This document shows positions 6,847 through 36,255 of a DNA stretch of 64,000 nucleotides, piece by piece. The notes under the pieces were generated by a model. That model worked only from the letters and a program-made list of their open reading frames with translations, ran no database searches and was not told the DNA's origin. The first letter of the stretch is position 1. Each line of letters opens with the position of its first letter. Location of the stretch: contig JAJVHY010000031.1 in assembly GCA_022072455.1 (NCBI GenBank), forward strand, positions 85,761 to 149,760, read 5' to 3'. The DNA is from Verrucomicrobiia bacterium (GTDB lineage Bacteria > Verrucomicrobiota > Verrucomicrobiia > Palsa-1439). Made by a program: the position numbers and the translations under genes.

Positions 6847-8760
<1,914 letters not shown>

Positions 8761-8762
8761 TT

Positions 8763-8837
8763 ATCTCCCTCCGCCGGCATTACCCGGATCAGGTTTTGTG
8801 GGTGTTATCTCAGCCCCTTGACGGAGCACCCCGAGTC
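8763..8837 (-). promoter_or_regulatory. TPP riboswitch (THI element) of thiC
   Basis: Read on the minus strand, the leader contains the conserved pieces GGGGCTGAGA, then ACCTGATCCGGGTAATG and CCGGCG, in the order and spacing of the thiamine pyrophosphate aptamer, closed by GGGGTGC... on the 5' side. The element begins right after the hesB-like stop. GGAGGGAG, the likely ribosome-binding site of thiC, is at its 3' edge, so ligand binding could hide it and block translation. Confidence 0.95.
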
Positions 8838-8838
8838 T

Positions 8839-9156
8839 TCAATTGAACGATTTACCACAACCGCAGCTGGAATGGACGTTTGGGTTCTGAATTTTAAATC
8901 CCGAGCCTTGCAGGCTGTCCACGTAATCAATGACACTGCCCTTGAGAAAATTGCCGCTCATCGGATCAATCACCACCTCGACGCCGTCCTGCGCGATCAC
9001 TTCATCGTCCGGTTTCTTGTCGTCGAACGCCATGCCGTACTCCATCCCGGAGCACCCGCCGGCCTCGACGTAAACGCGCAACGGTTTCCCGATGGCGTTC
9101 TGTTCTTTTTGGAGCGTGCCAATTTGCTTCGTTGCATTACCTGTCAGTGTCACCAT
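8839..9156 (-). CDS. HesB/IscA/ErpA-type iron-sulfur assembly protein
   Basis: 105 residues, the typical A-type carrier length. The three family cysteines are present: VEAGGCSGMEYGM (Cys35) and the C-terminal SSCGCGKSFN pair. A-type proteins deliver Fe-S clusters or iron to apo-enzymes. It lies immediately upstream of thiC, whose product needs a 4Fe-4S cluster. Which subtype (IscA, SufA or ErpA) cannot be told from this sequence alone. Confidence 0.92.
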   Translation of the reverse strand: MVTLTGNATKQIGTLQKEQNAIGKPLRVYVEAGGCSGMEYGMAFDDKKPDDEVIAQDGVEVVIDPMSGNFLKGSVIDYVDSLQGSGFKIQNPNVHSSCGCGKSFN

Positions 9157-17985: not shown

Positions 17986-18263
17986 GATGCTGGTTGAAAA
18001 AGAAATACCCCGCCGTAATGCCGTTGGAACGTTATCCTACGAACCCCTTAAATAAGGGGGTGCCTGGCCAACTGCTTCCGACTTCCTCAGAGAGGCGTGT
18101 CTTCCACAATCGAACTCAAGCTCCACTAACTGTTGTATTGGCTCGAGGAATCTTCGTTCGTCACGAACATGGCAGGGTATTTCGCGATTACGAAATCTTG
18201 CAAAGAACAGCGTCTCGACAACGCACTTATACCCCTCTTGGACTTGAGCTTCAAGCCGATTCC
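17986..18263. other. Intergenic stretch, no gene recognised
   Basis: About 280 bp between rarA and the 3' end of pheT. Short open frames run on both strands but none has a family pattern, a ribosome-binding site or a sensible start. It may be a decayed coding remnant. It probably also holds the promoter of rarA near 17990-18060. Confidence 0.4.
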
Positions 18264-21375: not shown

Positions 21376-22014
21376 TCACTGTTCGGGCCGTGGCAGATTA
21401 GTTTGAGGCCGCAAGCGATTGCGCCTCACATATGCGTTCAACAGATGCGTATGGCTCCATCTTTTGAAGGTGTCCGCCCGATACATCAAGATTGCGGAGA
21501 TGATCAAGGCTGCGATAATTTCGATGATGGTCTTCAGGAGGTGCATCTGGCTGACAGACGTTAAACTGTAGATACCGGCAGCCAAGGCAAAAGACATGAA
21601 GGAAAGACTCAGGTTTGATGCGAGCCCCTTCATTGCAGACATTTGGTCTGCCTTGTCACGGGCCCGTGGGACATAAACATCCGCGTATGAGTAAATCGAA
21701 GCAAAATGATATTCGGGCAGTGCGTCCCGCGGGTTGTCAGTATTGAAATTTGTTAATACTCGAGTTTTCAAATCGCCGAGGACCTTGTCGGTTATTCGAG
21801 AAATAAATGCTTCAGCAATTGCGTCCGAAACGAATCCTGTCATATAAGCAATAACCGCAATGGCTAGCAGTGAAAATGTGGACAAGTGACGGAGGACATA
21901 AAACAACTCCGGACAGCTGCCAAAATCGAGTGCATAGGGAATGAGCAAGAGATAACTGAGACCTGGGATCAGGTAGGAAAAAATATCGAACACAGTCAAT
22001 CTTATGTTATTCAT
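21376..22014 (-). CDS. Four-helix membrane protein of an NTase/methyltransferase module
   Basis: 212 residues with four predicted membrane helices at about 9-29 (DIFSYLIPGLSYLLLIPY), 43-63, 133-153 and 160-178, a soluble loop of ~65 residues between helices 2 and 3, and a basic C-terminal tail. No enzymatic motif. The start overlaps the methyltransferase stop by ATGA, so it is made with it. The segment is AT-richer than its surroundings. In signalling-type defence systems a small membrane protein is often the cell-killing effector; that role here is only inferred from position and topology. Confidence 0.75.
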   Translation of the reverse strand: MNNIRLTVFDIFSYLIPGLSYLLLIPYALDFGSCPELFYVLRHLSTFSLLAIAVIAYMTGFVSDAIAEAFISRITDKVLGDLKTRVLTNFNTDNPRDALPEYHFASIYSYADVYVPRARDKADQMSAMKGLASNLSLSFMSFALAAGIYSLTSVSQMHLLKTIIEIIAALIISAILMYRADTFKRWSHTHLLNAYVRRNRLRPQTNLPRPEQ

Positions 22015-24296
22015 ATCGGTAGTAATTTCTGTGTTTTTGGTATTGCTTCGCGGGATTTTCGGGATAGGAAGTCGCTTCCAGCGAATTCCATCAGCATGGT
22101 TGCATTGACTTGGCCTAGTTCCTTCGGTTCAAGCTTATAGAGGCCGCCACCGTATACCCTGCCGCTATTGCGAAGGTCTTCCTGTCGAATTGAATTTAGC
22201 GCCAGGAGAATTCGTTCGTCGAGGCCCGGTGTACAGCGAATCTGTTCAAGAAGCGACTCCTTGGGAAACAAAAGCAGGTAAACGTTTGTCGCTACAGCGT
22301 CAGAACGATTGAGGATGAATCGGAAAGGGGATCGAGTACTCGTACCGCGACCCATATAGGTACAGAGATACATGGGAATTGCGCGCGTTTCCTGCTTGTA
22401 CCACAGATGGCGGTTCTTCACCAAAAAACCATCGCGGACACCCAATTCCTTGGCAGTACTCAAGTATTTCCAGAGTCCCGGATACTGGGCTCGTATTGTC
22501 GTCTCTGGGAGATCACAGTCGAGAAGAACCAATTTCGGTTCGAGGAGCGGATGTCCACTGCGGTCCGTATTTACAATATTAGTATTAAGAAAGCGTGGGC
22601 TTGGGAGAATCGGTCGGTAAGAAGTCCGCGGAAAGTGGTGTTTTTTTGCAAGACCTAGTGTCAGGATAAAGAAGTCATTTGCCCCGGTCGCGATACCGCG
22701 TTGAATGCTAAAGAAGTCGCTTAGTGTCAGGGCGGGTTTTGGACCGACATCGAACTGTGCCATCGTTTCAGGCCATTTCGCAAGACTTCGAAGGTCGGAT
22801 ATCGATACTCTTCTCGATTCTAATGGGGTCGACAGACCGCCCCCTATGCTGTAGCGGGTCGAATGCTGCGGGTTAGGGACAGTATTAGTGAACAAAACAA
22901 TACATGACGCCGCCAACACGCCATCGAATTGTAAATCCTTCGGGTCAAATCGATGGATTACGTGCAAAGAGACGCGCGTAGTTAGGTACTCTCGGAGTGC
23001 GCTTCCGTAATCCGCGGCCATAAATTCTGAAGATACAAGCCAACACGCTACCGCATCAGATTGCATCCAATTATGACACAACATCATGAAGTATAAATAC
23101 AAACTCGAACGACCGCTGACAGTGATTCCGAGCTCGTCATAGACACGCTTCTGTAAGGCCCGTTTTTGAACATTTGACAGATATTGGTGGCGGACATACG
23201 GTGGGTTCGAGAGAATCAAATTACGCTTGTCTCTCAGCGATGTCGTAAAGAAGTCATCGTTAACAACTCGAAGACGTCGTTTCCCTCCCCAAACGCGCAT
23301 TGTTATTGATGCAATCGTTTTATCAATTTCGATTCCGACGGCAGAGACTAGCGTTTCAGGTGGAAATTCGTGCTGCAATGCTGCAAAAAACGTCCCGCTG
23401 CCGATACATGGGTCCCCAAAATCGATTCGATCAAGTTTGTTTTTGGCAAAAAGTCGAACATGCCGCACTATTTCGATCGCAAGCTCTGGGGGGGTCAAGA
23501 ATTGACCCAACAATCGGCGAATGCTACGCGGGTTCTTGGCGAGAGCCTCCGCGTGAATTCCTTTTTGAACAGATATTGTAGTTGCACTTCCCTTGTAGGT
23601 GTCCTTGATTTGTTCGAGAGTCTGAAGGGCGTGGTCGCTTTGAATTTCTAGCTTGCCCATGTGTGAAGCGTGAAATAGCCACCCTGGACCTGCCTGCTGA
23701 TGCAGGTAATCACATATAGACTTGATCCATTGCAGACGAGTCGATTCGGTGGCATCGGATACAGTATCAAAAGTTAATTCCTGCCCTATGATCTTCCGAA
23801 AGAGTATACAAGCCGCAACTGAGTAATTTCTCTCTGTTGGATTCTTTGTCTGGGAAGGACGGCGAAGCAGAATCCTCTTAAGCGACGCGTTGTGTGGTAG
23901 CTTAACCTTGATATGCCATGAGTATTCACGGAGGACATCGGCCACTTGGTGTGCAAAGCGGTTCGACTGTCCATCGTAAAGAGTAATGTGGGGCAAGCTG
24001 GTGATGTAGTCTGGTTTGTAGTGCAACCAAGCTGAACGCAATAGGTCACAACGGATGAAAACCGTATTTTGACTGGAAGGATTGGAGCTAGAGGAGGTAA
24101 ATAATCCTGGCTCAACTAGCTCAATTTCTGGGAAGTGTTCGTTCTGAAGAGTGAGAGTCCCTCTACTAATTGGACCGTAGACGGTAACATGCGGTTTTGA
24201 CTTGGAGGCCGGCTCGCATATGTTGCGGAGCAACTGCAGTACTGGAGTTACAAGCGGATCGTCAAGATACAGAACGTATATATATGAATGGGCCAT
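22011..24296 (-). CDS. 2H phosphoesterase-N6-adenine DNA methyltransferase fusion
   Basis: 761 residues. Residues ~1-130 match the 2H (RNA ligase/CPDase-like) fold: YIYVLYLDDP, then two HxT motifs, KPHVTVYGPI (His36, Thr38) and LPHITLYDG (His103, Thr105), the catalytic pair of that superfamily. Residues ~130-250 are unassigned. From ~262 comes an Eco57I/TaqI-like methyltransferase: GQFLTPPELA, SAM motif DPCIGSGTF (295-303) and catalytic NPPY (364-367). Residues ~510-740 resemble a TaqI-type target-recognition part (FFSIQRGIATGANDFF). No nuclease motif is seen, so this is not an obvious type IIG enzyme. Flanked by a nucleotidyltransferase gene (3 bp) and a membrane-protein gene (ATGA). Confidence 0.85.
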   Translation of the reverse strand: MAHSYIYVLYLDDPLVTPVLQLLRNICEPASKSKPHVTVYGPISRGTLTLQNEHFPEIELVEPGLFTSSSSNPSSQNTVFIRCDLLRSAWLHYKPDYITSLPHITLYDGQSNRFAHQVADVLREYSWHIKVKLPHNASLKRILLRRPSQTKNPTERNYSVAACILFRKIIGQELTFDTVSDATESTRLQWIKSICDYLHQQAGPGWLFHASHMGKLEIQSDHALQTLEQIKDTYKGSATTISVQKGIHAEALAKNPRSIRRLLGQFLTPPELAIEIVRHVRLFAKNKLDRIDFGDPCIGSGTFFAALQHEFPPETLVSAVGIEIDKTIASITMRVWGGKRRLRVVNDDFFTTSLRDKRNLILSNPPYVRHQYLSNVQKRALQKRVYDELGITVSGRSSLYLYFMMLCHNWMQSDAVACWLVSSEFMAADYGSALREYLTTRVSLHVIHRFDPKDLQFDGVLAASCIVLFTNTVPNPQHSTRYSIGGGLSTPLESRRVSISDLRSLAKWPETMAQFDVGPKPALTLSDFFSIQRGIATGANDFFILTLGLAKKHHFPRTSYRPILPSPRFLNTNIVNTDRSGHPLLEPKLVLLDCDLPETTIRAQYPGLWKYLSTAKELGVRDGFLVKNRHLWYKQETRAIPMYLCTYMGRGTSTRSPFRFILNRSDAVATNVYLLLFPKESLLEQIRCTPGLDERILLALNSIRQEDLRNSGRVYGGGLYKLEPKELGQVNATMLMEFAGSDFLSRKSREAIPKTQKLLPI

Positions 24297-24299
24297 GCA

Positions 24300-25289
24300 T
24301 CAAATCAGCATGTAGCGCATGCAGTTACTCTTCGCATCGACGCGCTTTAGCAATTTGAACATTTGGTCGCCATATGTACTAGCGCGCGTAAATGCGGCAC
24401 GTCGCTTTGGTTCATCAGCAAATAGATTTCGGAGATCGGGTGCGGGTAGCTCGGTTAAAGAAAGGAACCAGCTGTACTCCTCAAGAAGACGGTGAACAAG
24501 AGGGGTCGCGGATGGCTCGAACTTTGTTAAGTATTCAAGTCTCTCTCTAGGGGTTTGAAGGATTAGGTGTTTAATATATCGATCACTTACTGGGGCGGGA
24601 CGAGACAATGCGGCAAGAGTAGCAAAGCAGGTCGTCATCCGACTGAACTTGAGCTTAAAGTTTCTCACCTTGTGCTTGGTTATGGTCGATGGGTTATTAT
24701 AATGGGCGTATCTTTTATTCTCATAATTTAGACAGAGAGTCTTCCAATAACGAACTATATCGTTGACAAGGAAGACAGGGCGAAAGTCTCCTTGGTGCCG
24801 GGGAAAATCACGGAAATAACACTCGATGATGCTATCGACGGCGGACGAGTACAGTTGAGGATTTATGAGGGGCTTGCTCTCGAGCAGCAGCAACATGCGC
24901 GTCGTAAAATGGTTTCGGTGGTCATCACTGCGACCTCCCAACTGTAGTGCCATATCTTGAACATGGCGGATCTTCAAGTACTGACCGCGATTGGACGGAG
25001 GAGGGAATCCAAGTTCGCGCAATACTTGTCGTACTTGCCTAAAGAGGGCAAGTTCGTTGTACTTTAATCGTCGGAACTTCGGCGAGGTGTCGAGGAAGAA
25101 TAGATCGATGTCGGAATATTGACTTGCTTCCAATCTCGCATATGAGCCTGCAGCAAAAATGGTGAGATTGGGGAACTTTGAAAGGGCGGTGAGCCCCTGC
25201 AAGCGAAGCTGGAGTTCTCGGAGTCGGGAGCGAGAATACCTCGCGCGCTGAATAAATATTTTTCGAACTTTATCGTATTCGCGGGACAT
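24300..25289 (-). CDS. GlnD/DUF294-like nucleotidyltransferase
   Basis: 329 residues. A pol-beta-type nucleotidyltransferase site is clear: AAGSYARLEASQYSDIDLFF (GS at 48-49, Asp60 and Asp62). The following LKIRHVQDMALQLGGRSDDH and TTRMLLLLESKPL follow the layout of the second half of GlnD/DUF294 transferase domains. The C-terminal 150 residues are helical and unassigned; no HD, ACT or CBS domain is present, unlike true GlnD. First gene of a three-gene unit with the 2H-methyltransferase and the membrane protein. It could modify a protein, a tRNA or make a nucleotide signal. Confidence 0.82.
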   Translation of the reverse strand: MSREYDKVRKIFIQRARYSRSRLRELQLRLQGLTALSKFPNLTIFAAGSYARLEASQYSDIDLFFLDTSPKFRRLKYNELALFRQVRQVLRELGFPPPSNRGQYLKIRHVQDMALQLGGRSDDHRNHFTTRMLLLLESKPLINPQLYSSAVDSIIECYFRDFPRHQGDFRPVFLVNDIVRYWKTLCLNYENKRYAHYNNPSTITKHKVRNFKLKFSRMTTCFATLAALSRPAPVSDRYIKHLILQTPRERLEYLTKFEPSATPLVHRLLEEYSWFLSLTELPAPDLRNLFADEPKRRAAFTRASTYGDQMFKLLKRVDAKSNCMRYMLI

Positions 25290-25590: not shown

Positions 25591-25868
25591 CAATCTTGAC
25601 ACCATTTGGGCAACGCACCACACGGCGGGGCTATTCCAACCGTTTCCGTGCGGATGAACGGTGTCGAGCGCCTGATCCTCGGCGTCCAAGCAGGGGTTCT
25701 CGTTGACAGTCGCTTTCTCGAATTGAAGCCGGGCCGGCGCGAACAAATTGGAGTTCTCGGCTCTGAGATACCGGGCGATCCGTGGTTTACCCGACCAAAT
25801 TCATGCTTTTTTACCGCAAAAACATGCCCTCATTCGGTTTTTTCTTCATTGGAATCGTGTTTTGTTGG

Positions 25869-26099
25869 GTGACAAACGTCGCTTGTCACCTCAGTAACCA
25901 GTTTTCCGACATTGGTCCTGATTTTTCCGAGGTGACAAATGGGGTTTGTCACCTGAGAAACCGGATTTCCCAGATCATTCCGGACATTTCTGTGGTGACA
26001 AACCTCGTTTGTCATCTCGGAATCCGTGTTTCCACTGAGGGATTTCTGGTTTCCCATCTCGGTATCTCGCAGTAGCAGGTGACAATCGGCGTTTGTCAC
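25869..26099. repeat. Array of 21-bp palindromes on a 21-bp grid
   Basis: GTGACAAA-N5-TTGTCAC-type palindromes (21 bp each, arms of 7) start at 25869, 25932, 25995 and 26079; spacing 63, 63 and 84 bp. A worn copy lies between the last two, near 26043. The bases between copies also resemble each other (…TTTTCCGA, …TTTCCCAGA). Because all spacings are multiples of 21, the array is readable on both strands as a repeated VTN-x-VCHL peptide. Confidence 0.75.
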
Positions 26100-26131
26100 C
26101 ACGGGTATGACGAGTGCTTGAATGAATCTTC

Positions 26132-26761
26132 ATGAAGAAAGCCAAGTTACGCGCCACCCGAATTCCCGACGCCAAATTGCTCCTCGGCATAACCACCACC
26201 CGCAACGCGTTGCAGAAGAATGCGGCGCAGTTTTCCGACGCCGCAGCGATGATCGCGCAGTTGGAAGCGGTTTTGGAACCGTACGCCGAGGCGACCAGGG
26301 CCTTGGCGGAAGCAAAGAGCGAACTCAAGCATCGCGCCAGCGCGAAGAACGCCAAGCGCAAGCTCGCCGAATGCGCCTGGGGGATTGTGGCGTACCGAGT
26401 GGAAGCACAAGCCCGGAAGAACCCCCCCCTCCTCCACGCGGCCGGACTGCCGGTGACCAATGATCCTCGACCGGTTGTCATGACGCAGGTGCTCGGATTG
26501 CGACTCACGCCCAGCCGGAATGAAGGCGAAATCCTTGCCCGGTGGAAACCCATCCGTCGTGCCCGCGCTTATCAGGTGCAGATTTGCGCCGCTGAAGACA
26601 CCGCGCCGACCCATTGGCGATTCTATCGCACGTGCACGAAAACACGGTGCGCGCTCAATCAGGGACTGGAATCCGGGCGGAAAGTCTGGGTGCGCGTCCG
26701 GGCCTTCGGTGCCAGTGGCTTAGGGCCATGGAGCAACCCGGCGCGTCTGACGGTGCCGTGA
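26132..26761 (+). CDS. Fibronectin type III-like hypothetical protein
   Basis: 209 residues. Residues ~1-90 are helical and basic; residues ~120-209 look like one fibronectin type III module: LRLTPSRNEGEILARWKPI, RARAYQVQI, then TRCALNQGLESGRKVWVRVRA and FGASGLGPWSNPARLTV. No signal peptide is seen. Several Verrucomicrobiota encode similar short FN3 proteins, with no known function. It stands alone between the palindrome array and sua5. Confidence 0.7.
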   Translation: MKKAKLRATRIPDAKLLLGITTTRNALQKNAAQFSDAAAMIAQLEAVLEPYAEATRALAEAKSELKHRASAKNAKRKLAECAWGIVAYRVEAQARKNPPLLHAAGLPVTNDPRPVVMTQVLGLRLTPSRNEGEILARWKPIRRARAYQVQICAAEDTAPTHWRFYRTCTKTRCALNQGLESGRKVWVRVRAFGASGLGPWSNPARLTVP

Positions 26762-28284: not shown

Positions 28285-28374
28285 GGAGGGGTGTCCGAGT
28301 GGTTTAAGGAGCACGCCTGGAAAGCGTGTGGGGTCGCAAGGCCCTCGCGGGTTCGAATCCCGCTCCCTCCGCCA
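28285..28374 (+). tRNA. tRNA-Ser (anticodon GGA), CCA encoded
   Basis: 90 nt with a long variable arm as expected for serine. Acceptor GGAGGGG pairs with TCCCTCC; anticodon arm CACGC-CTGGAAA-GCGTG gives GGA; T arm GCGGG-TTCGAAT-CCCGC; discriminator G and encoded CCA at 28372-28374. It directly precedes the NRPS gene, 70 bp away. Confidence 0.97.
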
Positions 28375-28444
28375 TATTCAAACCAGGTCAAAGCGTGGTA
28401 GCCAACCGGCCATTTCGATTACTCATCTCCCTGCACCACGACTC

Positions 28445-30208
28445 GTGAACGCGCCACCCAATCTCCATGATGAAATTGCCGCGCCGGTTTATCCAGTGCT
28501 ACCGCAATTGATCGACCGCTGGACGGGTGGTGCGCCGGCGGTGACGCAAGGCGACCGGGTGTGGAGTTATGCGGAGCTGGTGGGCACCGCCCAAGCGCTC
28601 GCGGCGAAGTTGCCGGCGGGTGAAGTGGTGGCGGTGACGGGCCGGCCAAGTTTCGGGTTGGTGGCAGCCATGTTGGCGGTGTTGTCGAGCCGGAATACGC
28701 TGCTTACGATTGATCCAGATTTGCCGGCTCGCCGGCAGCAGCTCTTGGTCGAACAAGCGGCGGCGCGGTGGGTGCTGTGCGTCGGAACAATCCCGGCCGC
28801 ACTGGCACAACACGCCTGGACCGGTCAGTTGACTGTCGCCTCCGACGCCAGCGACGCCGATTCGGCCGTCGTCACGCCACCCCAGCCGGCTGATCCCGCA
28901 TACATCTTTTTCACCTCCGGAACGACCGGAATGCCGAAAGGGGTTCGCGGTTGCCACAAAGGATTGAGTCATTTTCTGGTCTGGCAACACGAGACGTTCG
29001 GAATCGGACCGGGTGACCGGGTGGCGCAGTTGACGAACTTGTCGTTTGACGTCGTGCTGCGGTCCGTGTTTGTGGCGTTGGTTAGCGGCGCGACGTTGTG
29101 TTTGCCGCCAGCCGAGGTGAATTTGACGGCGGCATCGGTTTTGCCGTGGCTGGAGCGGGCCGGCATCACGATTTTGCACACGGTCCCCAGTCTGGCGCAA
29201 ACGTGGCTGACGGAACGTAACTTGCCGGCGTTGCGGTTGACGTTTTTTGCCGGTGAACCGCTCATGGATACACTCGTGCGCCGGTGGCGGAAGAGCTTCC
29301 CGAATTGCCAGGTCGTGAATTTCTACGGGCCGACGGAGACCACGATGGCGAAGTTCTACTACATCGTGCCGGCCGAACCGGATCGCGGTGTGCAACCGGT
29401 CGGCTGGCCGTTGCCGCACACGCAGGGGTTGGTGATGGACGACGAGATCGTGATTCGCACGCCGTTTCGGACGCTCGGGTACATTAACGCGCCCGCCGAG
29501 CAGGCCTTGCGCTTTGTTCCGAATCCCGCCCGCAACGATCCCACCGACTTGCTCTACCGGACAGGTGACCGCGGCCGGTATCGCGCCGACGGCGCGTTGG
29601 AAATTCTGGGTCGCCTTGATCACCAAGTGAAAATTCAAGGCGTGCGGATTGAGCCCGATGAAGTCAATGCTGTCATCGCCGGCCATCCAGCGGTGATGGC
29701 CAGCGTGGTGGTTGCGTCCGCGGGACCGGCCCTGGTGGCTTATGTGGTCGCCACGGGTTTGACGGCACCGGCGTTACGCGAATACCTGATCGCGCAATTA
29801 CCGGCGGCAATGGTGCCGCGGCATTTGGTGTTTCTCGACCGGCTACCCTTGACCGCCAACGGCAAAGTCGACCGGCAAGCCCTCCCCGCCCCACCGGCGC
29901 CACCGCCCTACGCGGCGCCGCGCAACGCGATCGAAAATCTACTGACCGGCTTGTGGCAGCAAACGCTCAACGTGCCGCAGGTGGGAATCGACGACAATTT
30001 TTTTGACTTGGGCGGCAATTCGCTCCGACTGACAGAAGTTCACGGGCAATTGCAGGAAGCGTTGCACCGAGAGGTGCCGATCGCCCAACTCTTTCAATTT
30101 CCAACCATCAAACTCTTGGCGGCTGCATTGACGCAACCGGCCGCGCCCTTGTCCGCGCAACAACGCGCCGCCCGGCAACTCGCCGCGCGGGCCAAGCCCA
30201 CCGCATGA
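28445..30208 (+). CDS. NRPS loading module: adenylation-thiolation (A-T)
   Basis: 587 residues from GTG 28445; the frame is open upstream through tRNA-Ser, so a start after the tRNA is needed, and no strong ribosome-binding site marks it. Adenylation motifs: A3 FTSGTTGMPKG (~157-167), NFYGPTETT, LYRTGDRGRY, GRLDHQVKIQGVRIEPDE and the catalytic Lys in LTANGKVDRQALP. Thiolation site DLGGNSLRL (Ser ~526). No condensation domain, so it can load a starter amino or aryl acid. The binding-pocket residues (by eye DVRHFAFMAK) do not point me to a substrate. Its stop overlaps the next start, so the two proteins form one assembly line. Confidence 0.92.
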   Translation: MNAPPNLHDEIAAPVYPVLPQLIDRWTGGAPAVTQGDRVWSYAELVGTAQALAAKLPAGEVVAVTGRPSFGLVAAMLAVLSSRNTLLTIDPDLPARRQQLLVEQAAARWVLCVGTIPAALAQHAWTGQLTVASDASDADSAVVTPPQPADPAYIFFTSGTTGMPKGVRGCHKGLSHFLVWQHETFGIGPGDRVAQLTNLSFDVVLRSVFVALVSGATLCLPPAEVNLTAASVLPWLERAGITILHTVPSLAQTWLTERNLPALRLTFFAGEPLMDTLVRRWRKSFPNCQVVNFYGPTETTMAKFYYIVPAEPDRGVQPVGWPLPHTQGLVMDDEIVIRTPFRTLGYINAPAEQALRFVPNPARNDPTDLLYRTGDRGRYRADGALEILGRLDHQVKIQGVRIEPDEVNAVIAGHPAVMASVVVASAGPALVAYVVATGLTAPALREYLIAQLPAAMVPRHLVFLDRLPLTANGKVDRQALPAPPAPPPYAAPRNAIENLLTGLWQQTLNVPQVGIDDNFFDLGGNSLRLTEVHGQLQEALHREVPIAQLFQFPTIKLLAAALTQPAAPLSAQQRAARQLAARAKPTA

Positions 30209-33200
30209 GTGCGACTTCCATCGGCGACGTGGCCATCATCGGCATGGCGGGACGTTTTCCCGGCGCGCGCGACATCAATGCCTTCTGGCAGAACCTGAAA
30301 AACGGCGTCGAGTCCATCCGTTTTTTCACCGACGCCGAATTGCTGGCGGCCGGGGTGAGTCCGGAGTTGATCGCCAATCCGCTGTACGTCAAGGCGCGGC
30401 CGGTGCTCGCGGATATCGAGCAGTTCGATCCCGAATTCTTCGGCATCACCCCGCGCGAAGCGGCGTTGATGGACCCGCAACACCGGCTGTTTCTGGAAGC
30501 GGCGACTCACGCGCTCGACGACGCCGGCTATGACCCCGACCGGTACGACGGCGCGATTGGCGTGTACGGCGGCTCGTATCTCGACACCTACCTGCTCGCC
30601 AACTTGTGTCACGACCGCGAGTACATCGAGAGCGTGCTGACCGGGCAGGCGACTGGCGCGTATCATGTCGTGCTCGGTAACGACAAGGATTACCTGACCA
30701 CGCGCGTCGCCCACAAACTCAACCTCCGCGGCCCGGCCATCACCGTGCAGACGTCGTGTTCGACGTCGTTGGTCGCGATTTGCCAGGCGTGCCAGAGTTT
30801 GATTGACCAACAGTGCGACATGGCGCTGGCCGGTGGCGTCACGGTCATTGTGCCGCAAGATCGCGGGTACCTCGCGCAAGAAGGCGGCATGTTTTCGACC
30901 GACGGCCATTGCCGGCCTTTCGACGCGCAGGCGCAGGGAACGGTGTTCGGCAGCGGCGTGGGCGTCGTGCTGTTGAAGCGGTTGCCGGAGGCGCTGGCGG
31001 CGGGCGATCACATTTACGCCGTCATCAAAGGCACCGCCCTCAACAACGACGGCGCCGGCAAAGTCAGTTATACCGCACCGAGCGTGACCGGCCAAGCGGA
31101 AGTCGTCGCGCTCGCACAAGCGTTGGCCGGCGTGAGCGCAGAGACGATTTCCTACATCGAAGCCCACGGGACCGGCACGCCACTCGGCGATCCGATTGAA
31201 ATCGAGGCATTGACGCAAGCGTTCCGGCAGACAACCGACCGCACCGGTTTTTGCGGCATCGGTTCGCTCAAGGGGAATTTCGGTCATCTCGACGCCGCCG
31301 CCGGAGTAGCCGGGCTGATCAAGACGGCGCTGGCTTTGCAGCACAAGCTCCTGCCGGCCACGCTGCATTTCACCACGCCGAATCCAAAAATCAATTTTGC
31401 CGGGAGCCCATTCACTGTCATCGCCAAGGCGACCGAATGGACCGCCACGCCGCGCCGGGCAGGAGTCAGTTCCTTTGGCGTCGGCGGCACCAATGCGCAC
31501 GCCGTCCTCGAAGAAGCCCCGGCCCGTGAACCGGTCACGCCGTCGCGCCCCATCCAATTACTGACGCTTTCGGCGAAGACGCCGGCCGCGCTCGAGCAAG
31601 CCAGCGCCAATCTCGCGGCGCACTTGAAAGAGCACTCGGATCTCGATCTAGCCGACGTCGCCTTCACCCTCCAAGTCGGTCGCCGCGCCTTCCCGCACCG
31701 GCGCGTGCTCGTGGCGCGGGATGCCGGCGATGCGGTGGCGATCCTCGAACAGACCAACTCAAAGCGCAGTTTTACCGGGCAGGCAACCCGCCGGGATGCC
31801 CGCGTGGCGTTTCTGTTTCCCGGCCAAGGCGCGCAACAACTCAACATGGGCGCGGAGCTGTACGCCCGTGAGCCGGTCTTTCGCGAGGCGTTCGACCGGT
31901 GTGCGCGACTCGTGCCAGAACTCGATTTGCGGAACGCGACGGCCGAGCAACTCCGGCAGACGCGGTTCACGCAACCGGCGCTGTTCGCCATCGAGTATGC
32001 GCTCGCGGAATTGTGGATGAGTTGGGGAATTCGTCCGGCAGCGATGATCGGCCATAGCGTCGGCGAATACGTCGCCGCATGTCTGGCCGGGGTGTTCTCC
32101 CTCGAAGATGCCATGCGGATCGTGGCGGAGCGGGCCCGGTTGGTGCAGGCGCAGCCGCCCGGGGCGATGACGGCGGTGCGGCTGCCGGAAAATGACGTGG
32201 TGCCATTACTCGGGGCCGACCTATCCATCGCGGCGGTCAACGCGCCGGGACTCTGCATCGTGTCGGGACCGTTCGCTGCGATTGAAGCGTTCGAGTCGAA
32301 GCTGAAATCCGCCGGCACGGCGACCGTCCGCCTCCAGACTTCACATGCGTTTCACTCGGCGATGATGGAACCGGTCGTCGCGCCGCTGACCGCGTTGCTC
32401 CGGCAAGTCCACCTCCAAGCTCCACAAATTCCATACGTCTCCAATGTCACCGGCCAATGGAGCACCGGCACCGACGCGGACTATTGGGCCGGTCACGTGC
32501 GTCAGCCAGTGCGGTTCGCGCAGGGCATTACGAATTTGCTCGCGGACCCAGCGCTGGTTTTGTTGGAAGTCGGCCCCGGTCAAACTCTCAGCGCGTTGGC
32601 CCGGCAACACCCGGCCCGGCATTCGGAGCAAGTCGTGCTCAGTTCGTTGGGTCAACCCGATGAACAATCGGCAATGCTCACGGCGTTGGGACGATTATGG
32701 GTAGCCGGTGCGCCGTTGGACTCGGCCGCCTTGTTTGCCGGCGAACGGCGGCGGCGCGTCTCGTTGCCGGGCCATCCTTTCCAACGCCAGCGATGTTGGG
32801 TGGAAGCGCCGGGCCGCGCAGCCCCGACGACAGTCGCTCCCGTGATGGCGGCGACGAATGCCGGGACGCCGACCGGCACCCGACTGCGCGAACTGCTGCA
32901 AACGGTTACCGGGCGCGACTACGCGGCGGCCACTGACCAAACGACATTTGTCGAACTGGGATTTGAATCCCTCGCGTTGACTCAAGTGACGCTGGCGATT
33001 GCCAAAGAGTTCGGCGTCCGCGTTTCGTTCCGGCAACTGCTGGGCGACCTCGCGACGATTGGCGACCTGGCGGCCCATTTGGACGAACACCACGCCGAAT
33101 CGACTCCCGCGACGGCACCGGTGTCGCCACAATCCAGCGCGCCATTGACCGAAGCGCAACGGGAAGTCTGGTTGGCGGCGGCAGTCGGCAGTGCCACGAG

Positions 33201-36200
33201 TTGCGTCTTCAATCAATCAGCGCAATTGCGTTTGCGGGGGCCGTTGCAGGTGGTTCACATGGAGGCCGCCTTGCAGGATTTGGTGGACCGGCACGAGGGG
33301 TTGCGGATGCAATTCGCTCCGTTGGGCGAGCGGCAAACCGTCCTGCCCACACTGGTCATCTCGCCGGCATTCGCCGATCTCAGCGCACGAACGCCGGCGG
33401 AACGCGAGCAACAGTTGGCCGACTGGTTGCAGGCGGAGGCGAGCACGCCGTTTGATTTGGAGCACGGGCCGTTACTCCGCGCCCGCCTGGTGAAACTCGG
33501 CACCGTCGAACATGTCCTCTTGCTGACCGTGCAGCACATCGTTTGCGACGGCCGGTCACTGGCGTTGTTATGGCACGAACTCGGCGAGCTTTATACCGCC
33601 CGGTGCCGCGGTCGCGCGTCGCAGTTGCCGGTCGCCGGTTCGTTGTTGGCGTATGCGGTGACGGAAGCGCGCTTGACGCAAAGCCCGGAGTACGGCGACG
33701 CAGAGAAGTTTTGGATTGAGCAATTCGCGGACACTCCACCGCCATTGGATTTGCCGGCGGATTTGCCGCGTCCGGCAAAGAAGAGTTACCGGGCGGGGCT
33801 GCGCGGGATGGTTCTGCCTCCCGAACTGAGCCGGCAACTCAAGCAGATCAGCCAACGCCAAGGCGGGACGCTGTTCACGCTGTTGCTGGCGGCGTACTAT
33901 CATTGGTTGCAGCGTTTGTCCGGCCTCGATGACCTCGTGGTCGGGGTGCCGACCGCCACTCCCGGCGCGGAGGAATTTTCGGGATTGGTCGGACACACGG
34001 TAAATTTTCTCGCCGTCCGCGCGCAGTTGGACAGCCGGTTGCAGTGGCCCGATTATTGCCGGGCGGTGCAAGAATCGTTTCTTGATGCGTATGAGCACCG
34101 GCTGTTCACGTACGCCAGTTTGTTGCAGCGGTTGCGGGTGGATCGCGAGGCAGGACGACTGCCGTTGGTCGCCACGAGTTTCAATCTTGCGCAAGCCCGG
34201 CAGGCCCGGCACTTTCACGACCTCACCGTGACGCTGGAGGAAAACCCGTTCAGCTTCGCCAATCTCGATCTCGTGGTGGATGTCACGGATACCGGCACAC
34301 AGTTGGAAGTGGATTGCCGGTACGACGCCGACGCGTTCACTGCGGCGACGGTGGACCGGTGGCTGGGTTATTTCCAGACCTTGCTCGAAGCCATCGCCGG
34401 CAATCCGACCGGCCCCGTCGGCGATTTATCGTTTCTTCCCTCGCCCGAGCGCCGGCAAGCATTGGTCGAGTGGAACCCGCCAGCCACGCCAATCCCGCCG
34501 GTCTGTCTGCATGAATTGGTGGAGGCGCAAACCCGCCAAACGCCAAGCCGGGTTGCGGTGACTTTCGGAGCTCAGAGTCTGACATACGCTGCTCTGAATG
34601 AACGCGCAGACGCGGTGGCCGCGCAATTGCGTCAACTCGGTGTCGGTCACGAAACAGTCGTCGCGATTTACGTCGAGCGTTCGCTGGAGATGATTGTCGG
34701 GTTGTTGGGAATTCTCAAAGCCAGTGGCGCGTATTTGCCGCTCGATCCGGCTTTCCCGGCCGACCGGCTGGCGTTCATGATTGCCGACGCGCAACCACTC
34801 GCGATCGTGACACAACAGAAACTCGTGAACGCTCTTCCCGCGCACGATGCGCCGGTACTTTGCCTCGACGCATTGCCGGCTGCGCCCACTGCAAAACCCG
34901 GCACCGCAAAACCCGCCGATCTTGCCTACATCCTCTACACCTCCGGCTCCACCGGTAAGCCCAAGGGAGTCCAAATCCCCCACTCTGCAGTCGTCAATTT
35001 CCTGACGAGCATGCGCCGCGAACCCGGTCTGACTCCCGACGATGTCTTGGTGGCGGTCACCACGTTGTCATTCGACATTGCCGGGCTGGAAATTTTCCTC
35101 CCGCTCACGACCGGCGCGCGCGTCGTCATCGCCAACCGCGAAACGGCGGCTGACGGAGCCGCGCTGGCGGAGTTGTTACGCGCCAGCGGCGCCACTATGC
35201 TGCAAGCCACGCCGGTCACCTGGCGGCTGTTGCTGACGGCCGGTTGGCGCGGTGATTCCCGGCTGAAAATGCTCTGTGGCGGTGAAGCGTTGCCGGCGGA
35301 ACTGGCGGCGCAGTTGCTGCCCTGCGGCGCGGAACTGTGGAACCTCTACGGCCCGACGGAAACGACGATTTGGTCGGCCGCCACCCGGGTGATGCCCGGC
35401 GAACCCATTCGGTTGGGGCGTCCGCTTGCGAACACCACCCTCTACATTGTTGACCGGCACGGCCAGCTCGTTCCTACGGGAGTGCCGGGCGAACTGTTGA
35501 TCGGTGGGGCCGGTCTGGCACGCGGTTATCTGAAACGGCCTGAATTGACCGCGGAGAAATTCATCGCCAATCCGTTCGGGCCGGACCGGCTTTATCGGAC
35601 CGGCGATCTGGTGCGCCGGCACGCGGGTGGTTCCATGGAGTTTCTCGGTCGGCTGGATCAACAGGTCAAGATTCGCGGATACCGGATCGAGTTGGGTGAG
35701 ATCGAAGCCAGTCTGGCCCGGCATCCTGGAGTAAGAGTCGCGGTAGTCGTGGCGCGGGCCGACTCGTCCGGCGACCAGCGCTTGGTGGCGTATTTGACAA
35801 CCACTGACGCAGCTCCGCCGGCAATTGAATTGCGGGATTTTCTGACGGCCAGTTTACCGGACTACATGGTCCCGACGGCATTTGTATTCCTGAAAGAATT
35901 TCCGCTGACGCCCAACGGCAAGATCAACCGTAAAGCTTTGCCAGCCCCGGATCAGTCGGCCGCCGCGCGAGCGATGGAGTATGTCGCGCCGCGGACGCCT
36001 ACCGAAGAACGCCTGGCCGGCATCTGGCAGGAGGTTTTGCGGGTGCCGCAAGTCGGGACCACCGATAACTTTTTCCTACTGGGCGGGCATTCGCTTCTGG
36101 CTGTGCAAATCGTCTCGCGGGTGCGCGACTCGCTCGGCGTTCCGCTGTCGCTGGCGGACTTCTTTCAAAACCTCACCGTGGCCAGTCTTGCCGCGCAGGT

Positions 36201-36255
36201 CGACAAGCTCCAGGCATCGACCGGCAAAACTTTGGTCGAGGGCGAAGTTGATTAG
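30205..36255 (+). CDS. Hybrid PKS-NRPS: KS-AT-T-C-A-T
   Basis: 2016 residues. KS (~8-435): active Cys in VQTSCSTSLVAI, EAHGTGTPLGDP and GNFGHLDAAAG. AT (~534-830): GHSVGEY (Ser618) and HAFH at 714-717, the malonyl-type signature. Carrier 1 Ser ~922 (GFESLAL). Condensation (~979-1400): QHIVCDG at 1110-1116, catalytic His1111 kept, first His of HHxxxDG replaced by Gln. Adenylation (~1433-1900): YTSGSTGKPKG at ~1578, pocket residues by eye DILQLGLIWK, which I recall as glycine-like. Carrier 2 Ser ~1963. No ketoreductase, dehydratase, thioesterase or reductase, so a beta-keto product must leave by another route. ATG overlaps the A-T stop. Confidence 0.94.
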   Translation: MSATSIGDVAIIGMAGRFPGARDINAFWQNLKNGVESIRFFTDAELLAAGVSPELIANPLYVKARPVLADIEQFDPEFFGITPREAALMDPQHRLFLEAATHALDDAGYDPDRYDGAIGVYGGSYLDTYLLANLCHDREYIESVLTGQATGAYHVVLGNDKDYLTTRVAHKLNLRGPAITVQTSCSTSLVAICQACQSLIDQQCDMALAGGVTVIVPQDRGYLAQEGGMFSTDGHCRPFDAQAQGTVFGSGVGVVLLKRLPEALAAGDHIYAVIKGTALNNDGAGKVSYTAPSVTGQAEVVALAQALAGVSAETISYIEAHGTGTPLGDPIEIEALTQAFRQTTDRTGFCGIGSLKGNFGHLDAAAGVAGLIKTALALQHKLLPATLHFTTPNPKINFAGSPFTVIAKATEWTATPRRAGVSSFGVGGTNAHAVLEEAPAREPVTPSRPIQLLTLSAKTPAALEQASANLAAHLKEHSDLDLADVAFTLQVGRRAFPHRRVLVARDAGDAVAILEQTNSKRSFTGQATRRDARVAFLFPGQGAQQLNMGAELYAREPVFREAFDRCARLVPELDLRNATAEQLRQTRFTQPALFAIEYALAELWMSWGIRPAAMIGHSVGEYVAACLAGVFSLEDAMRIVAERARLVQAQPPGAMTAVRLPENDVVPLLGADLSIAAVNAPGLCIVSGPFAAIEAFESKLKSAGTATVRLQTSHAFHSAMMEPVVAPLTALLRQVHLQAPQIPYVSNVTGQWSTGTDADYWAGHVRQPVRFAQGITNLLADPALVLLEVGPGQTLSALARQHPARHSEQVVLSSLGQPDEQSAMLTALGRLWVAGAPLDSAALFAGERRRRVSLPGHPFQRQRCWVEAPGRAAPTTVAPVMAATNAGTPTGTRLRELLQTVTGRDYAAATDQTTFVELGFESLALTQVTLAIAKEFGVRVSFRQLLGDLATIGDLAAHLDEHHAESTPATAPVSPQSSAPLTEAQREVWLAAAVGSATSCVFNQSAQLRLRGPLQVVHMEAALQDLVDRHEGLRMQFAPLGERQTVLPTLVISPAFADLSARTPAEREQQLADWLQAEASTPFDLEHGPLLRARLVKLGTVEHVLLLTVQHIVCDGRSLALLWHELGELYTARCRGRASQLPVAGSLLAYAVTEARLTQSPEYGDAEKFWIEQFADTPPPLDLPADLPRPAKKSYRAGLRGMVLPPELSRQLKQISQRQGGTLFTLLLAAYYHWLQRLSGLDDLVVGVPTATPGAEEFSGLVGHTVNFLAVRAQLDSRLQWPDYCRAVQESFLDAYEHRLFTYASLLQRLRVDREAGRLPLVATSFNLAQARQARHFHDLTVTLEENPFSFANLDLVVDVTDTGTQLEVDCRYDADAFTAATVDRWLGYFQTLLEAIAGNPTGPVGDLSFLPSPERRQALVEWNPPATPIPPVCLHELVEAQTRQTPSRVAVTFGAQSLTYAALNERADAVAAQLRQLGVGHETVVAIYVERSLEMIVGLLGILKASGAYLPLDPAFPADRLAFMIADAQPLAIVTQQKLVNALPAHDAPVLCLDALPAAPTAKPGTAKPADLAYILYTSGSTGKPKGVQIPHSAVVNFLTSMRREPGLTPDDVLVAVTTLSFDIAGLEIFLPLTTGARVVIANRETAADGAALAELLRASGATMLQATPVTWRLLLTAGWRGDSRLKMLCGGEALPAELAAQLLPCGAELWNLYGPTETTIWSAATRVMPGEPIRLGRPLANTTLYIVDRHGQLVPTGVPGELLIGGAGLARGYLKRPELTAEKFIANPFGPDRLYRTGDLVRRHAGGSMEFLGRLDQQVKIRGYRIELGEIEASLARHPGVRVAVVVARADSSGDQRLVAYLTTTDAAPPAIELRDFLTASLPDYMVPTAFVFLKEFPLTPNGKINRKALPAPDQSAAARAMEYVAPRTPTEERLAGIWQEVLRVPQVGTTDNFFLLGGHSLLAVQIVSRVRDSLGVPLSLADFFQNLTVASLAAQVDKLQASTGKTLVEGEVD

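Follow-up and report, generated by a model that had tools for sequence, protein, structure and literature searches.

The locus

The window, i.e. the whole stretch of 64,000 nucleotides that was analysed, contains a row of palindromes between a small fn3-like gene and a divergent block with a methyltransferase and a nucleotidyltransferase-like gene. The features that concern us here are the following.

21376..22014, minus strand: open reading frame of 212 aa in the methyltransferase block, without a Pfam match (ORF list, Pfam)
22011..24296, minus strand: Eco57I / N6-adenine DNA methyltransferase of restriction-modification (R-M) type (PF07669, E 2.4e-11; PF02384, E 3.2e-7)
24300..25289, minus strand: nucleotidyltransferase-like gene, divergent and 5' of the array (PF01909 slightly under the cut-off, E 0.00068)
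25847..26099, no strand: 21-bp-phased array of 12 slots with a dyad-symmetric unit profile (identity at 21-bp lags)
25869..25889, no strand: palindrome 1, GTGACAAACGTCGCTTGTCAC (motif search)
25932..25952, no strand: palindrome 2, GTGACAAATGGGGTTTGTCAC, with perfect arms (motif search)
25995..26015, no strand: palindrome 3, GTGACAAACCTCGTTTGTCAT (motif search)
26036..26062, no strand: worn copy, in register (63% identity to the reference copy)
26079..26099, no strand: palindrome 4, GTGACAATCGGCGTTTGTCAC (motif search)
26132..26761, plus strand: cassette gene, 209 aa, with a helical N-terminal and an fn3-like C-terminal domain (model; weak Pfam fn3 match, E 0.0011, below the cut-off)

The four palindromes of the form GTGACAAA-N5-TTTGTCAC start at 25869, 25932, 25995 and 26079 with 0-1 mismatches each, i.e. 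at distances of 63, 63 and 84 bp; motif search thereby confirms the arrangement given in the first-pass annotation, including its worn copy, which starts at 26036 and is 63% identical. When up to three mismatches are allowed, the motif is matched four times, whereas shuffles gave 0.23 matches on average and never more than 2. Divided at 21 bp, the array gives 12 slots, and those lying between the strong palindromes are weak copies as well. A strong palindrome occupies each third slot until 26015 and the final one follows four slots on; TRF reports a period of 63 bp for 25868-26022. Shuffle tests bear out the 21-bp register that had been claimed: mean identity at lags of 21, 42 and so on to 147 is 0.473, compared to 0.258 +/- 0.015 (maximum 0.317) in 2000 dinucleotide shuffles, and all other phase offsets give at most 0.31. 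For the unit profile, dyad symmetry is significant (p 0.0005) and mirror symmetry, the control, is not (p 0.86). The array is nevertheless a weak one, with a gene-flank self-match of 14.6 at lag 42 where other loci exceed 100.

One open reading frame on each strand crosses the array, at 25782-26075 (plus) and 25830-26102 (minus). Two such read-through frames are expected because a 21-bp period repeats a stop-free unit, and neither gave any indication of being a gene; no Rfam family matched at the array. The array adjoins an accessory block with a methyltransferase, consistent with its earlier placement at the border of an accessory island. No empty site was found when the neighbouring Sua5-type gene was followed into nine relatives and six stretches were inspected; in these six stretches pheT and the other window neighbours were not found beside the Sua5-type gene, and the gene order of the window is not kept. 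Elsewhere in the window, a tandem repeat stands at the window edge (1-801; unit 240 bp, 3.3 copies, 91%), a TPP riboswitch (8749-8843) and a 6S RNA (18003-18181) are matched on the minus strand, and large open reading frames at 28328-36255 resemble adenylation and polyketide-synthase modules, as judged by eye from the translation.

Arrays across the class

In the 4.8-Mb genome from which the window derives, the motif with at most two mismatches comprises the four array sites and one further match, the latter with two mismatches; with at most one mismatch, it was found at this locus only among the 11 family genomes searched. The same genome holds paralogues of the 26132-26761 gene, several of which are preceded by tracts with a 21-bp period of quite other sequence: units of CAAGC..GCTTG type at L009 and L010, GCRTTTGC at L008, and others at L007 and L012. 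The motif search recommended by the first-pass annotation, in the genome and its relatives, therefore gives a divided answer: the motif is private to the locus, whereas the arrangement recurs once the search is anchored on the gene. It is this anchoring that makes a class-wide family visible, as the motif by itself would suggest a local curiosity.

Of 384 genomes of the class, 65 contain matches to a search profile built from six paralogues of the fn3-like gene, weak generic fn3 hits included. At most eight candidates per genome were scored, and 60 of 67 further listed candidates were taken up. The 113 located loci correspond to 105 distinct proteins, and 96 of these were analysed, three having been dropped for less than 250 bp upstream and the remainder since their match began past profile position 40. 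Self-match was measured at lags of 10-60 over up to 1000 bp upstream. The best upstream lag is 21 or 42 at 75 of the 96 loci (21 at 44, 42 at 31), with several loci per genome, so that the counts are not independent; 73 of the 75 exceed their own shuffle maximum. The other 21 members have a different best lag, or none; a best lag of 22, 43 or 44 occurs at 7 of the 96 loci, and 22-bp arrays exist. In the gene bodies, used as control, lag 21 or 42 is best in 12 of 96, and a score of at least 25 is reached in one, compared to 66 of 96 upstream.

In a set of named genomes, mostly Verrucomicrobia MAGs with some labelled Acidobacteria, 27 of 38 loci were used and 25 had enough upstream sequence; 21 of these 25 regions are best at lag 21 or 42, in a set that partly overlaps the first (e.g. 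L189 resembles L016, L193 L119, L204 L114, L205 L095 and L200 L064). A second gene family, found via the genome of origin, matched in 20 of 188 genomes, and its upstream regions are best at lag 21 or 42 in 16 of 19 cases. Around the cassettes, 19 hits at lag 21 or 42 were detected in 322 kb, against six in 332 kb of control sequence (at four of 20 loci); behind two of these four stand small proteins that seem to be of the same type when inspected by eye and that have no Pfam hit. Random stretches of the genome of origin (240 kb) gave four hits at these lags in three places, namely a remnant of a known array, a position before a second-family gene, and a short one. Family members also lie on contigs labelled as Acidobacteria MAGs (L198, L210 and L216, with 21-bp arrays at L198 and L210), hinting at transfer between phyla or at mis-binning.

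The spacing, which the first-pass reading required to persist in relatives, is accordingly kept elsewhere in the gene family. What that reading overlooked is that the array goes with the gene that follows it and belongs to a class-wide family keeping geometry, not sequence.

What the arrays conserve

Three things are conserved, i.e. an exact 21.0-bp period, dyad symmetry and position, and sequence is not. In a pool of 66 arrays, identity is 0.62 for units one step apart (lag 21) and 0.55 for those eight steps apart (lag 168), compared to 0.24-0.31 when the lag is off by 1-3 bp to either side; such persistence between sharp flanks fixes the step at exactly 21 bp. Of 72 arrays, 53 are dyad-symmetric at p<0.05, compared to 5 in the mirror and 10 in the direct-complement controls. 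Median array length is 276 bp, and the median distance from array end to gene start is 188 bp (minimum 37). The arrays hold about 10-20 units at a step of 21 bp or, in some few cases, 22 bp, and lie between tens and a few hundreds of bp upstream of the gene. The period, the symmetry and the association with a gene were all observed directly.

The sequence, by contrast, turns over. In one genome, the leaders of L011, L032 and L012 are 90-98% identical and their arrays differ; among 16 pairs with alike leaders, the arrays of four are more similar than those of 95% of unrelated pairs and the arrays of 12 are not, by a score that ignores indels. One subfamily retains a recognisable CCGTCACGGAC-like motif in several named genomes.

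It had also been counted against a non-coding element that the repeat might prove part of a coding gene in relatives. The arrays do not look coding. A coding repeat was rejected because the six frames are about equally open (23 to 35 of 66), with few open up to the gene start, and because 22-bp arrays exist; counting towards coding, 2.46 of six frames are open compared to 1.55 in column-permuted arrays, with none open in 11 of 72. DNA curvature by A-tracts was likewise rejected, as A/T content lacks a 10.5-bp harmonic. A 7-bp A/T harmonic (0.206 against 0.100) weakened under a run-preserving control, with 38 of 66 arrays above the null, and is not interpreted.

The cassette protein and companion genes

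The model of the fn3-like protein (mean pLDDT 86.5, pTM 0.53) consists of a helical domain followed by fn3. Among the matches listed, solved structures match it through the fn3 domain alone, and viral structure models likewise match mainly via this part. NCBIfam has no family for the protein, PHROGs gave weak tail-protein matches only (E 0.007 and 0.002), and no DNA-binding family was matched by the window gene in the Pfam, structure and NCBIfam searches. The cassette proteins tested contain no Rep domain.

Clustering of small proteins in 30 contexts returned the fn3-like family and one other family without a Pfam hit, and no more. Several cassettes (L132:11046-11699, L126:1021-1917, L128, L129 and L145) have beside them a gene of a second recurrent family, which is of MPFNP... 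FTGLKDLIDA type and without a match in Pfam; in several copies, the homologous stretches break off at the stop codon of this gene, give or take about 2 bp. In the leaders of L007, L009, L012, L092 and L097, a short open reading frame with aromatic W/Y-D-x-x-G repeats lies between array and gene. An apparently truncated tyrosine recombinase gene (Phage_int_SAM_4; L132:14148-15209) is located about 1 kb from the L007 array.

Phage and plasmid records gave no protein match to the cassette family, and none was confirmed in viral contigs. A scan of viral contigs for the spaced half-sites yielded 79 loci. Many of the 80 loci checked, which include the contig with the L109 palindrome, self-match at 21, 42 or 63 bp; these are mostly long 63-bp repeats, which are taken to be coding, plus one Rep3 iteron row. 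Two contigs of the viral collection carry 21-bp rows: about four iteron units before a Rep3_N initiator gene at L264:2207-2963, probably a plasmid, and four copies of ACAATTTGTCACCCCCCCCTG, a GTGACAAATTGT-type row, at L304:14300-14414.

Discussion

Based on the survey and the array statistics, we tentatively read the window array as a degenerate case of an array type that occurs across the class, acts in cis and makes up the non-coding 5' portion of small cassettes of fn3 type. As a working model of equally tentative standing, we propose that such an array is a platform of dimer-binding sites on one face of the DNA, through which a putative binder would control the cassette. Each dyad would constitute a site for a symmetric, dimeric DNA-binding protein, and two helical turns per unit would place all dimers on the same face, allowing co-operative binding. 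The dimers could then coat roughly 200-300 bp over the cassette promoter or leader and thereby silence or switch the cassette. The arrays have what a cooperative-dimer operator array has, namely dyad-symmetric sites in helical phase. The earlier suggestion that all sites share one DNA face stays plausible, with the 21-bp spacing recurring before relatives throughout the class. Because the arrays maintain their geometry while the sequence changes, the binder would either read shape and symmetry with loose sequence needs or co-evolve with its own array. The protein and its function are inferred, and that geometry outlasts sequence is the odd part of the finding.

Several observations speak against such a platform. 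No DNA-binding gene recurs in the cassettes among the 30 contexts, and the solved structures listed meet the protein model in its fn3 domain alone. Unrelated motifs within one genome fit poorly with a single sequence-specific regulator, and 18-19 of 72 arrays, the most uniform ones included, are without significant dyad symmetry. A/T content shows no 10.5-bp harmonic, the 21 members with another best lag or none stand outside the pattern, and arrays are found near other genes, too.

Alternatively, the arrays may mark a site of recombination or mobility, around which cassettes and defence cargo are gained, lost and exchanged while the array is renewed by unequal exchange; we consider this unlikely, although part of the data points that way. 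L126 (1021-6268) and L127 (1658-6680), at different chromosomal places, share one end of 1192 bp at 98.8% identity, comprising array, small open reading frame and fn3 gene, and, about 3 kb away, a second of 833 bp at 96%. Between these near-identical ends lie a C5-methyltransferase with EcoRII-C and Vsr in one case and a large N6-methyltransferase protein in the other, and the outer genes differ. In the genome of origin, 7 of the 9 DNA methyltransferases found are within 5 kb of a cassette. They comprise four of the genome's seven N6 hits, which are close to fn3 cassettes (0.14 expected), C28 near a second-family gene, the sole C5 enzyme found and the window's own. C10 (N6) and C3, a 281-aa frame that may not belong to R-M, have no cassette nearby. 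The link is weaker elsewhere: the 122 N6-methyltransferase hits in 28 further genomes include 8 that have a cassette within 8 kb, compared to 1.7 expected. Against exchange at the array itself, the identity of the duplicated unit begins about 126 bp before the array and not within it. Moreover, no recombinase is common to the cassettes, most cassettes elsewhere are without R-M neighbours, and neither an empty site nor a kept gene order was seen in the relatives' stretches described above. Association with R-M as the main function was rejected for a similar imbalance, being enriched in the genome of origin while R-M genes are few in neighbour sets elsewhere: the neighbours of 20 loci (116 proteins) include few, by a count of families and not of loci. 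Among the 25 of 49 PADLOC families listed for the control neighbours (120 proteins), no R-M family appears, while Cas12b and others do.

A functionless satellite, grown from a 21-bp seed through slippage or unequal crossing-over and subject to decay, is less probable still. Uniform centres with worn edges at L057 and L124, the fast turnover of motifs and the presence of the most uniform arrays among the least palindromic would all suit it. The first-pass annotation had named a decaying tandem repeat as its alternative, which is partly right, the window copy being degenerate, with a low self-match; the spacing is kept class-wide. A neutral process would also have to account for a period that is nearly always 21 or 22 bp before the same small-gene families, and for the dyad symmetry of most arrays. 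L079 and L083 speak against it as well: in these loci of one genome, the proteins are 84% and the flanks 81-88% identical, and the arrays are equal in length and place with unrelated units, i.e. length and position were kept despite complete sequence change.

The palindromic units directly before the gene could in principle act as a row of hairpins in the leader, in transcribed RNA or folded single-stranded DNA, which we regard as very unlikely. Covariation between the arms is near nil overall (4964 against 4900 expected, z 1.8; arm match 1.3% above chance), and although z exceeds 2 in 11 of 70 arrays, L109 and a few others covarying, it falls below -2 in 6 of 70; such near-absence of covariation fits protein sites better than hairpins. 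Least probable of all is a decoy that mimics repressor operators of phages or mobile elements and titrates the repressors, with an arms race driving sequence turnover: quick turnover, nearby R-M genes and a window half-site that presumably resembles repressor operators would agree with it, but the window palindrome (18 fixed bases) has no exact hit in viral contigs, and that of L109 occurs in one viral contig, where the sequence looks like a terminator.

Returning to the dimer-site platform, known systems resemble the arrays in part. Plasmid iterons, e.g. of Rep3-type origins, likewise form tandem rows of 20-22-bp units that are in helical register and lie immediately 5' to a gene, and Rep proteins co-evolve with their iterons. 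The arrays share the helically phased direct repeats and not the adjacent replication initiator; they are chromosomal, palindromic and of about 10-20 diverged units, with a downstream protein lacking a Rep domain. Minisatellites or VNTRs are tandem units with turnover, as are the arrays, which are set apart by a constant period of 21 bp, by dyad symmetry and by their fixed gene partner. CRISPR arrays consist of near-identical repeats parted by unique spacers, whereas the units here are continuous and without spacers. Integron attC sites are single folded sites 3' of each cassette gene, unlike the multi-unit arrays 5' of the gene. RptR operators in an R-M promoter comprise three repeats of 9 bp with a single fixed palindrome, the 6-bp TAGCTA (PMC12255303). 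Alike in being repeated palindromes close to restriction genes, they differ from our arrays, in which the motif varies by locus and an fn3-like gene stands behind; the window unit is 21 bp long and has another palindrome. An RptR-type operator would be followed by a small helical repressor as its first gene; the gene behind the window array starts with a helical domain, ends in fn3 and matched no DNA-binding family in the searches described above. REP/BIME elements are extragenic palindromes of about 20-40 bp (PMC3733652) and thus comparable, but REPs have the same sequence at high copy, while the sequence in the window is confined to a single locus. The open-access literature searched gave no description of arrays of this sort, the closest paper encountered being that on RptR, and the array type is widespread in Verrucomicrobia and seemingly undescribed.

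In conclusion, it is possible, if somewhat doubtful, that the arrays represent a new kind of element, i.e. cassettes with a 5' control or identity region selected for geometry, meaning the exact 21-bp step, the dyad symmetry, the length and the place, and not for sequence, each with a private, renewable array that either a factor sensing symmetry or shape or a co-evolving partner would recognise. If this is true, many Verrucomicrobia would hold phased arrays of palindromes linked to a protein family that recurs but has no name and, in the genome studied here, to most of the DNA methyltransferases found. The arrays would then offer a natural case of selection on DNA geometry rather than sequence, and a handle on the control or exchange of such cassettes.
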